This document shows, in pieces, positions 4,928 to 8,609 of a stretch of 64,000 bases of DNA. Source of the DNA: Spirochaetales bacterium (GTDB taxonomy: Bacteria > Spirochaetota > Spirochaetia > UBA9216); assembly GCA_016839055.1 (NCBI GenBank), contig JAEKNX010000002.1, forward strand, positions 248,001-312,000, read 5' to 3'. The stretch's first letter is position 1. Each line of letters begins with the position of its first letter. The position numbers and the translations under genes were made by a program. The notes beneath the pieces were generated by a model, which made no database searches, had not been told where the DNA came from, and saw only the letters and a program-made list of their open reading frames with translations.

Positions 4928-5461
4928 ATGGCTTTAGTAAAGATAATAACCGGAGAAACGAATTCGGGAAAGACTACAATGGCGCTGCGACTCGAGGCTG
5001 AATATAGAAAGCGGGGGCAGAGGACTGCCGGATTCATCGCTGAGGCTGAATATGAAGACGATAGGAAATCATCCTATTATCTGCGCAATATTGAAGACGG
5101 CAGCAGGATGATTTCCGTAACCGAGAACCCGGGTTCGGTTCTTCCCGGCAAGAGCGGATTTTGTAGGTACGATTTCAGCAGATTCTATTTTTATACTCCT
5201 TCGTTTACCTATGCCGCCGAAAGAATCGACGAAATCATAGGAAGAGCATCGGGCTTGGCTCCGGATGTTGTTTTCATTGATGAGATAGGACCTCTGGAAT
5301 TGTCCGGTCAGGGACACTCTGCGGCGGTAGAAAGGCTGCTTAGCGAGTTCGGCGGCAGCCTTATATTGGTAATAAGGGAAGATCTTTTAGATAAATTTCT
5401 CGAAACACTGAATATTCAGACTGAGGATATCGAGATTATAAGGACTGCCCGAGAGTCTTAA
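4928..5461 (+). CDS. NTPase, THEP1 family
   Basis: A 177-residue protein with Walker A GETNSGKTTMA at residues 8-18 and a Walker B VVFIDEIGPLEL near residue 115, the diagnostic pair of the THEP1/KAP nucleoside-triphosphatase family (PF03266). Members hydrolyse ATP or GTP in vitro and some are nucleotide kinases; the role in the cell is unclear. The start is fixed because the next Met falls after the P-loop. Convergent with the following gene, sharing TTAA at the stops. Divergent partner of mobB, which hints at a nucleotide- or cofactor-related task. Confidence 0.82.
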   Translation: MALVKIITGETNSGKTTMALRLEAEYRKRGQRTAGFIAEAEYEDDRKSSYYLRNIEDGSRMISVTENPGSVLPGKSGFCRYDFSRFYFYTPSFTYAAERIDEIIGRASGLAPDVVFIDEIGPLELSGQGHSAAVERLLSEFGGSLILVIREDLLDKFLETLNIQTEDIEIIRTARES

Positions 5462-5700
5462 GTGTAGTAAGCTGCTTTCCGCTTACTGACCTTCATCCTG
5501 AATTCGCACCCGGCTATTGAGCACGCCATTTTGACTTCCGGTGCGGGATCTCCGGCCGATGTGACTACTACGACTCCCGAGTTGAGTTTTACCGAAACAT
5601 CGCTTACTTTAATGCTTATAAGTAAGGCTTTTCTGAGTTTCTCCGCTTTATAAGCAGTGAGTCCGTCTATTAGATATACATGTAATGTAGTTCGTGACAT
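5458..5700 (-). CDS. Small HMA-like (ferredoxin-fold) protein
   Basis: This 80-residue protein shows the beta-alpha-beta-beta-alpha-beta pattern of heavy-metal-associated domains (LHVYLIDGLTAYKAEKLRKA, then VSVKLNSGVVVVTS, then PEVKMACSIAGCEFRM). The metal-binding CxxC of that family is absent; the only two cysteines lie five residues apart in CSIAGC. It may therefore bind something else, or nothing. It has no Shine-Dalgarno and a near-consensus promoter placed for a leaderless mRNA. Its stop overlaps that of the THEP1 gene by 4 nt. Function unknown. Confidence 0.6.
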   Translation of the reverse strand: MSRTTLHVYLIDGLTAYKAEKLRKALLISIKVSDVSVKLNSGVVVVTSAGDPAPEVKMACSIAGCEFRMKVSKRKAAYYT

Positions 5701-5705
5701 AATTC

Positions 5706-5734
5706 ATAATATTTAAAACAACTTTCTATGTCAA
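5706..5734 (-). promoter_or_regulatory. Leaderless promoter of the HMA-like gene
   Basis: TTGACA (5734-5729), 17 bp, TATTAT (5711-5706), 5 nt, ATG (5700). The -35 is perfect and the -10 is 5/6. The expected transcription start coincides with the start codon, and no ribosome-binding site is present. Confidence 0.75.
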
Positions 5735-5818
5735 AAGGTATTTTTTATTATTTTCCCATTGAAATTATTCTTTCTAGGCGTTAAATTTGTATAATTGAGA
5801 TCTATTAGGAGAAGATAA

Positions 5819-6364
5819 ATGAAAAGAATGTTAATGATTGTATTAGCTCTTGTATCAGTGCTGTTAGTTTTTTCATGTGCTTCAGGCAAAGTAAGTGGAG
5901 TACCCGATTTTGTATTAAATCCTCCGATGGCAGATGATGTAATTTACGGAGTAGGTTACGGCAATCAGTCCAAACTTTCACTTTCAAAGACTGTTGCAGA
6001 GACAAATGCCAGGGCTGATATTGCCAGACAGATTGCAACAACAATCCAGGCTTCAGTGACTGATTATGCTCAGGAAGCAGGTGTTGATGATAATACTCAG
6101 CTAATCAGTTTTGTAGAATCAGTTACCCGTGAAATCACTGATCAGAAGCTCAGCGGAGCAAAACCAGTTAAATTTGAGCAGGATGATGACGGCGGTATCT
6201 GGGTGTTGATGCAGCTTGATAAAGGTGCTCTGGTAGCCGCGGCAGAGAAAGCGTTTGTAAGAAATGAGGACGCTGCTTTTGCAGAGTTTAAGGCTGCCGA
6301 TGCCCTTGCAAAACTTGATTATCAGCTGGAACATAATCCTACTGTATCAGAACCTGTAAAATAA
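5819..6364 (+). CDS. LPP20-family lipoprotein
   Basis: The 181-residue product has a lipoprotein signal peptide (residues 1-19, lipobox LVFSC with Cys20) and then an LPP20-like domain: YGVGYGNQSKLSLSKTVAET followed by the helix NARADIARQIATTIQA, which is typical of the family. It should be lipid-anchored in the envelope. It is preceded by AGGAG and followed by a strong hairpin before a second, larger relative, so the two form a tandem pair. The biochemical role of LPP20 proteins is not established. Confidence 0.8.
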   Translation: MKRMLMIVLALVSVLLVFSCASGKVSGVPDFVLNPPMADDVIYGVGYGNQSKLSLSKTVAETNARADIARQIATTIQASVTDYAQEAGVDDNTQLISFVESVTREITDQKLSGAKPVKFEQDDDGGIWVLMQLDKGALVAAAEKAFVRNEDAAFAEFKAADALAKLDYQLEHNPTVSEPVK

Positions 6365-6384
6365 TTTTTTAAAACTTGATTTTT

Positions 6385-6418
6385 GAAAGCTGATCAGAAT
6401 TTGATCAGCTTTCTTATT
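6385..6418 (+). terminator. Hairpin between the two LPP20-like genes
   Basis: A perfect 12-bp stem, GAAAGCTGATCA (6385-6396) and TGATCAGCTTTC (6402-6413), has a 5-nt loop and is followed by TTATTTG. It can act as a rho-independent or partial terminator, leaving the second gene with reduced or separate transcription. Confidence 0.65.
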
Positions 6419-6433
6419 TGAAACGGGGAAAAC

Positions 6434-7801
6434 ATGTATAGAAAGAATTTTAAGCTGAAAAACCGATTAGCAGCAGTAGTGACGGCAGCCGTCAGTTTTT
6501 GTTTATTGATTACCTCTTGCGCAACCGCGCCGTCCAAGCCAAACTGGATCACCGACTATCCTGCCGACAATGCGTATTATATCGGAATAGGTTCTTCTAA
6601 TAACGGGAATGAGGCCGAGGACAATGAAATAGCCCGAAAGAGGGCATTGACAAACCTTGCGTCAGAAATCTCAGCGGTCATCATGAGTGAAGTGAATATC
6701 CGCACAACAGATGATAACCTCGGTAATTATGAAAGCCGGGCAATGGAAGAGATTACTCAGCTTGTCGAACAAAATCTTAAAGCAGTAGAAACCATGGATG
6801 CCTGGTATTCCCCCGAATCCGGCTACTGGTATTATATGAGGCTGAATAAGGCAGAATGGCTGCGGATTCAGCAGCGTGAGATGGCTGATATAGAACGGAG
6901 AGTCAAGAATCTTGTTGAACCTGTAATAGGCAATAAAAACAGAACAATAGCTGACATCCTGCCCGTGTTGATTGACGGATGGAGTATAGTTGCCGAATCA
7001 ACCTACACCGGCATGATCGAAACCCAGCTGATGGGCGAGAAGGGAGCCCTGATAGATCTTCTTGAAAAGCAGATTGGACTGTATATGGGCGGACTGACAA
7101 TCAGCCTGGCCGAGGCTGAAATAAGTGTCGAAGCGGGACGACCGGTTGACCTTTTTTTTAAAGTCGAATCGACTATGGATAATGAGCCTGGACAGCTGCA
7201 GATAGATCTAATAGAGCGGAATGGTTCGGAAATTCTGATATCATGTACAACCTCCGGGAACGGAAGTTATAGTGACAGTATTGATCTCTCGGGACTTGAA
7301 ATCGGCAAAAATTATGTTACCGCCGTTCTGAACACCGATATTCTCGGCTATAAGGATAAGGCCATTCAGCTGAATCCCCCGAAGAAAGACTTTCTCATAG
7401 ACCTGCAGAAGATAAAAACAAAGCTTGAAATAAGTTATTCAGGAGATCTTGATGAGTTTGAAAATGCCGCGTCTACATTCGGCTCTGTTAAGGCAATACT
7501 CTCGGATACTCTGCCGGTAGAAATTGACAACAGCGGCAGTAGAGCATTTCTTATTGGTTTTAATCTAAACTACCGGAATGCTCCGCCCAATGATTATGGT
7601 TTTACAATTATCTATGTAAAGGCGAACATCTCAATAATGCGGAACAGTAACAATGTCTATACCTATGAAACCGAAGAGGTTAAAGGCGCAGGACTGAACT
7701 GGACTCAGGCCAATTCGAAGGCTCTCGATAAACTTTTTGAAGCGCTCAGCTTTGACTCTGATTTCTCGGAAGAATCGTTTAACGCCTTTACCATAGACTG
7801 A
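6434..7801 (+). CDS. Large LPP20-domain lipoprotein
   Basis: A 455-residue protein with a lipoprotein signal (lipobox LITSC, Cys near residue 29) and an N-terminal LPP20-like region: YYIGIGSSNNGNEAEDNEIA and RKRALTNLASEISAVI. The remaining 280 residues look like beta-rich extracytoplasmic domains with no family I recognise. Preceded by CGGGGA 6-7 nt from ATG. It follows the shorter LPP20 gene and probably shares a role with it in envelope structure; that is inference. A strong terminator follows. Confidence 0.72.
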   Translation: MYRKNFKLKNRLAAVVTAAVSFCLLITSCATAPSKPNWITDYPADNAYYIGIGSSNNGNEAEDNEIARKRALTNLASEISAVIMSEVNIRTTDDNLGNYESRAMEEITQLVEQNLKAVETMDAWYSPESGYWYYMRLNKAEWLRIQQREMADIERRVKNLVEPVIGNKNRTIADILPVLIDGWSIVAESTYTGMIETQLMGEKGALIDLLEKQIGLYMGGLTISLAEAEISVEAGRPVDLFFKVESTMDNEPGQLQIDLIERNGSEILISCTTSGNGSYSDSIDLSGLEIGKNYVTAVLNTDILGYKDKAIQLNPPKKDFLIDLQKIKTKLEISYSGDLDEFENAASTFGSVKAILSDTLPVEIDNSGSRAFLIGFNLNYRNAPPNDYGFTIIYVKANISIMRNSNNVYTYETEEVKGAGLNWTQANSKALDKLFEALSFDSDFSEESFNAFTID

Positions 7802-7831
7802 TGCTCTAAATACACTTTTGGGCTTTATACA

Positions 7832-7865
7832 AACCGCCGGTTCTTGATTCACCGGCGGTTTTTTT
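7832..7865 (+). terminator. Rho-independent terminator
   Basis: Perfect 10-bp GC-rich stem AACCGCCGGT (7832-7841) and ACCGGCGGTT (7851-7860), 9-nt loop, then a T-run to 7865. It ends the LPP20 transcript. The loop contains the -35 of the next promoter. Confidence 0.9.
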
Positions 7866-7872
7866 GTATTAT
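7844..7872 (+). promoter_or_regulatory. yhhQ promoter nested in the upstream terminator
   Basis: TTGATT (7844-7849), 17 bp, TATTAT (7867-7872). The -35 lies in the terminator loop and the spacer is the 3' arm of the hairpin plus its T-run. The predicted start near 7879-7880 falls directly at the 5' end of the riboswitch aptamer. Confidence 0.6.
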
Positions 7873-7880
7873 CACATTCC

Positions 7881-7918
7881 GGCGGTCGCAGTTACCCGCC
7901 TTAACAAAACGACGGAGG
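7881..7918 (+). ncRNA. PreQ1-I riboswitch (type II-like)
   Basis: The segment aligns without gaps to the Thermoanaerobacter tengcongensis preQ1-I aptamer as I remember it. P1 is GGCGG (7881-7885) with CCGCC (7896-7900); three of its five pairs covary against the reference. The loop TCGCAGTTAC and the tail TTAACAAAAC keep the ligand-contacting U6, C15 (7895) and A29 (7909). Outside P1 only about three positions differ. The 3' end merges with the GGAGG Shine-Dalgarno (7914-7918), 7 nt from the yhhQ ATG, so preQ1 binding should block translation. The gene downstream is a queuosine-precursor transporter, which fits. Confidence 0.9.
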
Positions 7919-7925
7919 TATTTTT

Positions 7926-8609
7926 ATGAATGCTCTATTCTGGTTTATAATGCTCATTATTAATTTCGCGGCGATTATGCTTGCCTATAGGCTCTTCGGG
8001 AAAACAGGTTTGTTTCTCTGGATCCCGATATCAGTTATAATCGCCAACATTCAGGTTGTAAAAACTGTTGAAATCTTCGGATTTGTAGCCACTCTCGGAA
8101 ATATTGTTTACGCAACTTCATTTCTAGTTACTGACATACTTAACGAAAATTATGGAAAAAAGGAAGCGGGAAAGGCTGTCGGAATGGGGTTCTTCGCGTT
8201 AATCTCGATGACTGTTCTGATGAACCTAGCGCTCCGGTTTGTTCCGCATGAATCTGACTTTGCACAGGAAAGTCTTCTTACAATCTTCAGTATAATGCCT
8301 AGGATAGCGGCAGGAAGTCTTACCGCTTATGCCTTGTCTCAGTTTCACGATGTCTGGGCGTATAACCGCCTCAAAGAGATGCGGCCCGGCAGGAAGTATA
8401 TATGGCTTAGAAATAACGCGTCAACGATGGTTAGTCAGGCTATAGACAGTATTGTTTTTACCCTGATTGCCTTTGCGGGAGTTTTTGAATTTGCACTTCT
8501 TATTGAAATTATGCTGACTACCTATTTTTTTAAATGGCTTGTAGCAGCTGCGGATACGCCGTTTATTTATTTGGCGCGAAGCTGGAAAGATAAGGGCATT
8601 GTGGAATAA
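7926..8609 (+). CDS. yhhQ: Queuosine precursor transporter YhhQ
   Basis: A 227-residue inner-membrane protein with about six helices and the YhhQ (Vut_1/DUF165) signatures: ATSFLVTDILNENYGKKEA near residue 65, a middle region AYALSQFHDVWAYNRLK near residue 140, and LRNNASTMVSQAIDS near residue 163. Members import queuosine precursors (preQ0/preQ1). The preQ1 riboswitch at its ribosome-binding site gives independent support. It appears monocistronic; de novo preQ1 genes are not visible here. Confidence 0.92.
   Translation: MNALFWFIMLIINFAAIMLAYRLFGKTGLFLWIPISVIIANIQVVKTVEIFGFVATLGNIVYATSFLVTDILNENYGKKEAGKAVGMGFFALISMTVLMNLALRFVPHESDFAQESLLTIFSIMPRIAAGSLTAYALSQFHDVWAYNRLKEMRPGRKYIWLRNNASTMVSQAIDSIVFTLIAFAGVFEFALLIEIMLTTYFFKWLVAAADTPFIYLARSWKDKGIVE

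Follow-up and report, generated by a model that had tools for sequence, protein, structure and literature searches.

The window analyzed here is the whole 64,000-nt stretch of Spirochaetales DNA introduced above. At 4928–7801 it carries an NTPase_1 gene and two genes for LPP20-like lipoproteins, which are followed by yhhQ. The product of yhhQ, of 227 residues, was assigned to the YhhQ/QPTR family of queuosine-precursor transporters, with a TIGR00697 score of 223.7 bits against a cut-off of 50.95 bits. This agreed with the identification of the gene in an earlier sequence-only reading and places the element considered here, at 7881–7918, upstream of a queuosine gene (Table 1).

The putative sigma-70-type promoter ahead of yhhQ was the only such site found (0.6 were expected in shuffled sequences). 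It ends 8 nt upstream of the first base of the element (G1), and the predicted transcription start lies at about 7879–7881, that is, at or beside that base. In all five genomes of the genus that were compared, a TTGAnn box and a TAnnnT box separated by 17 or 18 nt were found 7–8 nt before G1. From this shared geometry, the aptamer is expected to form the very 5' end of the transcript. The -35 box of yhhQ lies inside the loop of the terminator hairpin of the upstream lipoprotein gene and the -10 box comes straight after its U-tract (7831–7872); the same overlap of terminator and promoter was observed in a second species (L013), upstream of its aptamer.

Table 1. Features of the yhhQ locus, with positions in the window and the basis of each assignment.
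Feature	Position	Strand	Basis
Terminator hairpin of the upstream lipoprotein gene (11 bp, 9-nt loop, U-tract to 7866)	7831–7861	+	fold -18.1 kcal/mol
Putative sigma-70-type promoter, TTGATT (7844–7849), 17 nt, TATTAT (7867–7872)	7844–7872	+	only site found; 0.6 expected in shuffles
P1 5' strand, GGCGG (G1–G5)	7881–7885	+	pairs with 7896–7900; covariation
Loops L1 and L2, UCGCAG UUA (U6–A14)	7886–7894	+	L1 as in the Tte-type loop of L042, L046 and L049
C15, predicted preQ1-pairing specificity base	7895	+	sequence; preceded by A14, giving the AC signature of type II
P1 3' strand, CCGCC (C16–C20)	7896–7900	+	covariation
A-rich loop L3, UUAACAAAA (U21–A29)	7901–7909	+	CAAAAC invariant in alignments A3 and A6
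Pseudoknot/linker bases CGAC (C30, G31, A32, C33), where the tail is unusual	7910–7913	+	CGACGGAGG tail shared by four families of the class
Shine-Dalgarno sequence GGAGG (G34–G38)	7914–7918	+	7 nt ahead of the ATG at 7926
yhhQ (QPTR), queuosine-precursor transporter, 227 aa	7926–8609	+	Vut_1 (PF02592) 176.2 bits; TIGR00697 223.7 bits

The surroundings of yhhQ differ among relatives. In a genome of the same family (G006) yhhQ begins a few bases past the end of the same lipoprotein gene, with no aptamer between them, and in several other relatives it comes after an NTPase_1-like gene resembling that at 4928–5461. In these relatives lacking the aptamer, yhhQ abuts the NTPase-like or the lipoprotein gene. 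In the genus studied here the lipoprotein gene and yhhQ are set apart by the riboswitch, a promoter and a terminator, the last of these seen in the window and in L013.

Direct reading of 7881–7918 gave the 38-nt sequence GGCGG UCGCAG UUAC CCGCC UUAACAAAA CGAC GGAGG. Numbered from G1 (7881) to G38 (7918), this sequence lined up base for base with the preQ1-I aptamer of Thermoanaerobacter tengcongensis (Tte), and all of the core bases named for Tte were present except in the tail, where C30 G31 A32 C33 G34 is found versus C30 A31 A32 G33 G34 in Tte. The loop bases U6, C7, G8, C9, A10, G11 and A14 match those of Tte, for which their roles have been described (PMC10622847, PMC11625349). P1 is a perfect 5-bp helix (G1-C20 to G5-C16) that differs from the Tte helix by compensatory changes, and the A-rich loop L3 ends in the conserved C30 (CAAAAC at 7905–7910).

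The bases A14 C15 (7894–7895) conform to the rule that type II aptamers carry AC ahead of the P1 3' strand, the C being the specificity base (PMC11625349). Type III aptamers are defined by a loop that is short and rich in pyrimidines and by UU following the P1 5' strand (PMC10622847, PMC11625349), whereas the loop here is UCGCAGUUAC. Type I aptamers, which bind two ligands, have UC ahead of the P1 3' strand, with UU on the 5' side (PMC11625349), whereas the element has AC and UC at the corresponding places. The element is thus, with high confidence, assigned from its sequence to the preQ1-I class as a type II aptamer, whose 3' end is the ribosome-binding site of the transporter gene. It is an ordinary element of a known kind with the expected control of the expected gene, the ribosome-binding tail being its unusual part.

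The 38 bases were identical in the four other genomes of the genus, i.e., there were zero changes among five species. Mean pairwise identity among these species was 100% within the aptamer; it was 45% in the 40 nt preceding it, 28.5% still further upstream, 41% in the spacer and 47% at the third positions of yhhQ codons, and the longest invariant run in the yhhQ coding sequence was 7 nt. In an alignment of 15 type II-like sequences, P1 pairing was retained in 100% of cells for all five pairs and three of the five pairs had changed on both sides. This pattern of covariation persisted in 67 distinct rows, with scores far exceeding those of shuffled and slid controls. A hairpin predicted downstream, in which the Shine-Dalgarno sequence pairs with codons 1–8, was dropped as it had no covariation across the genus.

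The sequence-only reading had proposed a preQ1-I aptamer with exactly these coordinates, with nearly every core base retained and with compensatory changes in P1, and our analyses bore out each of these points. It had also proposed that a low covariance-model score would refute the aptamer, and this check proved to depend on the model used. The Rfam PreQ1 model (RF00522) gave a full-length alignment at the correct place with a score of only 13.5 bits, and at the curated cut-off of 39 bits it had no match in the whole window. In short searches the E-value at the site was 0.7–3.6 and several chance matches in the same genome outscored it; the other Rfam matches in this genome were judged to be chance, as none scored with our model R1. 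A positive control with a Tte-type sequence, from Thermoanaerobacter thermocopriae, also remained below the cut-off (24.4 bits), as did every type II homologue that was scored, from Thermoanaerobacter, Moorella, Caldicoprobacter, Dethiobacter, Chloroflexota and Spirochaetota. The failure of RF00522 therefore says little about membership of type II, and we rejected the low Rfam score as a refutation of the riboswitch.

An independent type II covariance model (R2), built from 12 type II-like sequences of Firmicutes and Chloroflexota and containing no spirochaete, matched the site with 52.7 bits and an E-value of 3.3e-13 in the 64 kb; the runner-up in the window had 7.7 bits. The Rfam cut-off for preQ1-I thus misses the type II subgroup tested, including the type whose structure has been solved, and the spread of preQ1 riboswitches is under-counted as a result.

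The queuosine genes of this marine spirochaete are consistent with a need for the transporter. TGT and QueA were present in the genome (a draft, 97% complete) and no QueC or QueF was found in it; a weak QueF match was read as FolE (EHHMLPFFGKCHIGY). The other members of the genus, including one genome that is 100% complete (G003), also had no convincing QueC or QueF, and the absence of these two proteins is based on draft genomes. With TGT and QueA and without preQ1 synthesis, preQ1 must be taken up, and members of the YhhQ family are known to take up preQ1 in E. coli (PMC11130926). Judging from its gene content, the genome should depend on salvaged preQ1. The genus appears reliant on the imported compound, and the switch would then govern its only evident source of a queuosine precursor. 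In the class as a whole a convincing QueC was found in one of 60 genomes (G040) and QueF in five of 60; weak QueC matches in relatives were short or marginal and lay inside other open reading frames. In this class, queuosine precursors seem as a rule to be salvaged.

Together, the sequence, the covariation of P1, the conservation, the gene context, the promoter geometry and the absence of QueC and QueF support a translational riboswitch. We consider it highly probable that the element is a translational OFF riboswitch, in which a type II preQ1-I aptamer and the Shine-Dalgarno sequence of the gene for a preQ1 transporter are fused; the ligand, the pseudoknot register and the direction of control are inferred. 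In the proposed mechanism the mRNA would start at or beside G1. When preQ1 is scarce, P1 would form and the tail would be free, leaving GGAGG accessible, so that YhhQ would be made and preQ1 imported. When preQ1 is plentiful, it would stack between P1 and P2 and pair with C15; the 3' tail, from C30 onward, would pair with L1 and bury at least the first base of GGAGG, lowering translation. Control at translation had already been proposed from the position of GGAGG in the 3' part of the aptamer, and it is consistent with the Shine-Dalgarno sequence lying inside the aptamer and with no terminator being found between the aptamer and the ATG. The switch would very likely shut off preQ1 import when the cell has enough; control of this kind, in which preQ1 feeds back on its own importer, is what would be expected. 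Counted against this explanation are the Rfam score of 13.5 bits, the absence of the Tte pair C9-G33 in register, the replacement by G31 of A31, which in Tte contacts G8, and the lack of covariation support for P2 of its own.

Other explanations of the conserved leader were weighed against this riboswitch. The ligand might be a 7-deazaguanine other than preQ1, namely preQ0 or queuine, as the compound carried by a transporter of the YhhQ family can be preQ0, preQ1 or queuine and differs between members (PMC11130926), and type II aptamers discriminate between preQ0 and preQ1 less well than those of type III (PMC10622847). We consider this improbable, however, since the pocket bases G5, U6, C15, A14 and A29 do not differ from those of Tte, the genome encodes QueA, whose step follows the insertion of preQ1, and no QueF that could make use of preQ0, and aptamers of the same kind occur upstream of queF, whose product is preQ1. 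That the leader went unrecognized by Rfam would also be compatible with a conserved structure that is not a metabolite switch, such as a constitutive hairpin at the ribosome-binding site or a site bound by a protein. A shared protein-binding site would not explain why the core recurs in Firmicutes, Chloroflexota and Spirochaetota before unrelated queuosine genes (yhhQ, queF and queT) and equals the crystallized preQ1 aptamer base for base, which makes an explanation of this kind very improbable. A chance resemblance to the preQ1-I consensus, to which the Rfam E-values of 0.7–3.6 in short searches could point, is counted as already refuted by the E-value of 3.3e-13 with the independent model and by the total conservation across five diverged species; its probability is negligible.

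Within the translational riboswitch that we favor, the tail is the part that allows more than one reading. In Tte the contacts are C7+/G11-C30/A14, G8-A31, A10-A32 and C9-G33 (PMC10622847; PMC11625349). With G at position 31 and C at position 33, the element has lost C9-G33 as such; the sequence-only reading had placed C33 in or next to the pseudoknot helix and noted that it may alter pairing. Between C30 and the pairing G, homologues have tails of different lengths (CAAGG, CAAAGG, CUGG, CAGG and CAUAGG); CAAAGG, with the pairing G at 34, was found in Dethiobacter and Thermoanaerobacter, and the latter has both tails, CAAGGGAGG and CAAAGGAGG. In P2, G11-C30 is possible, and so is C9-G34, as in the CAAAGG homologues. 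Based on the variable length of these tails, C9-G34 with a three-base linker is the conservative reading. C33 is therefore better read as the extra base of a linker that is one base longer (CGAC-GG versus CAAA-GG) than as a lost pairing G33. In the most likely register, predicted from these comparisons, the Tte ceiling (C7+/G11-C30/A14) would be kept, P2 would be closed by C9-G34 and G31-A32-C33 would form the linker.

A less probable reading, which nevertheless deserves some weight, is that the riboswitch is the same and the CGAC tail forms a pseudoknot unlike that of Tte, which would alter the way in which the Shine-Dalgarno sequence is held and rebuild the ceiling over the ligand pocket. 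Either U6-C7-G8 would pair with C30-G31-A32 in three Watson-Crick pairs, to which an opened top pair of P1 could add G5-C33, or C7-G34 and G8-C33 would form together with G11-C30. The two changes relative to Dethiobacter, A31G and A33C, are exactly the bases that make GUCG (G5–G8) and CGAC complementary. The resulting duplex has -5.0 kcal/mol with G5 and -1.3 kcal/mol or weaker without it, compared to -0.2 kcal/mol for the Dethiobacter tail, and UCG/CGA is the best contiguous pairing of L1 and tail in the window. The CGACGG tail is also unchanged in four families. On the other hand, the bases of the Tte ceiling (C7, G11, C30 and A14) are all retained, G5 is required in P1 and for recognition of the ligand, and L1 does not differ between species whose tails are CAAGG, CAAAGG or CUGG, so that no compensating change accompanies CGAC.

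Tests for covariation in P2 over the larger set of aptamers gave no signal, as the score for contiguous pairing of L1 and tail was no higher than that of shuffled loops or swapped tails, with standard and with extended loops. L1 was invariant among carriers of CGACGG, and the invariance of this tail suggests that it matters. Its distribution over four families of the class requires at least three changes on the YhhQ tree, and a single origin is thus unsupported; the tail would be either old and often lost, or would have arisen or moved more than once. We regard as doubtful the broader proposal that the CGACGGAGG tail marks a spirochaete subtype of type II with a rewired P2 (UCG/CGA, or C7-G34 with G8-C33), within a larger set of spirochaete preQ1-I aptamers missed by existing public models. 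If it is correct, the subtype would have another ceiling over the ligand and another way of holding the Shine-Dalgarno sequence. The invariant CGAC tail is a small natural experiment on how much alteration the type II pseudoknot tolerates.

A scan of GTDB species genomes with the core pattern identified matches in Moorella, Thermoanaerobacter, Caldicoprobacter, Dethiobacter, Chloroflexota and spirochaetes, along with a handful, probably by chance, in Actinomycetota and elsewhere. Strong matches to model R1 (E below about 1e-4) were found in about 40 of 395 sampled genomes of the class; with E-values up to 0.1 allowed, 101 of the 395 genomes had a match, many of these being weak. The open reading frame after the aptamer encoded YhhQ in 59 of 73 matches examined, and in the tested sample of the others it encoded QueF or QueT. 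A 2024 review does not have this class among the lineages named for preQ1-I, and the open literature searched, to which the 2014 survey of preQ1 classes does not belong, named no spirochaete preQ1-I riboswitch.

Several of these relatives had features of their own. Many Spirochaetia aptamers (L082, L084, L086, L095, L117, L119 and others, in families f42, f45 and f12) have an L1 with 2–5 extra nucleotides and a high pyrimidine content (UCCU, CUCC, UUCC), similar to an anti-Shine-Dalgarno sequence; the complementarity of these longer loops was not above that of composition-shuffled loops. In L098 a hairpin of about 28 nt is inserted in the L1 loop. Two leaders upstream of yhhQ in family f26 (L034 and L038, the latter with a long insert) have the divergent form GGCGGUGCCAG...CAAAACUGGGAGA, with a possible 4-bp CCAG/CUGG pseudoknot, and are too divergent to be detected by our model. 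In family f28 four aptamers (L096, L097, L099 and L102) lie ahead of queF, and in one genome (G033) yhhQ is directly downstream of queF on the same strand, forming a queF-yhhQ unit under one switch. The presence of this unit in a spirochaete without QueC suggests salvage of preQ0 there. In a Chloroflexota sequence (L041:6184–6253) two preQ1-I aptamers are in tandem upstream of a YhhQ-like open reading frame, the second directly after the first.

Among the closest counterparts were the Dethiobacter leaders (L042, L043 and L060), in which the first 30 aptamer bases are identical to those of the window (GGCGGUCGCAGUUACCCGCCUUAACAAAAC). Their tail is CAAAGGAGG in place of CGACGGAGG, and the gene that follows L042, the sole Dethiobacter leader tested, is queF by Pfam rather than yhhQ. 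The Tte riboswitch, a type II element of known structure (PDB 3q50 and 6vui), shares with the window the 5-bp P1, the loop UCGCAGU, AC before the P1 3' strand, the L3 sequence UUAACAAAAC, the Shine-Dalgarno sequence in the tail and translational control. It differs in the sequence of P1, by compensatory changes, and in its tail, CAAGGGAGG. The window element controls yhhQ, whereas on the Tte side a QueT-type gene is controlled; QueT was identified by Pfam in Caldicoprobacter and the Thermoanaerobacter open reading frame resembles it. The type III riboswitch upstream of yhhQ in Escherichia coli (PDB 8fza) serves the same transporter family and also has its Shine-Dalgarno sequence inside the pseudoknot. 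Its loop is shorter and pyrimidine-rich with a UU motif, in contrast to the type II loop of the window, which has G8, A10 and G11 in L1.
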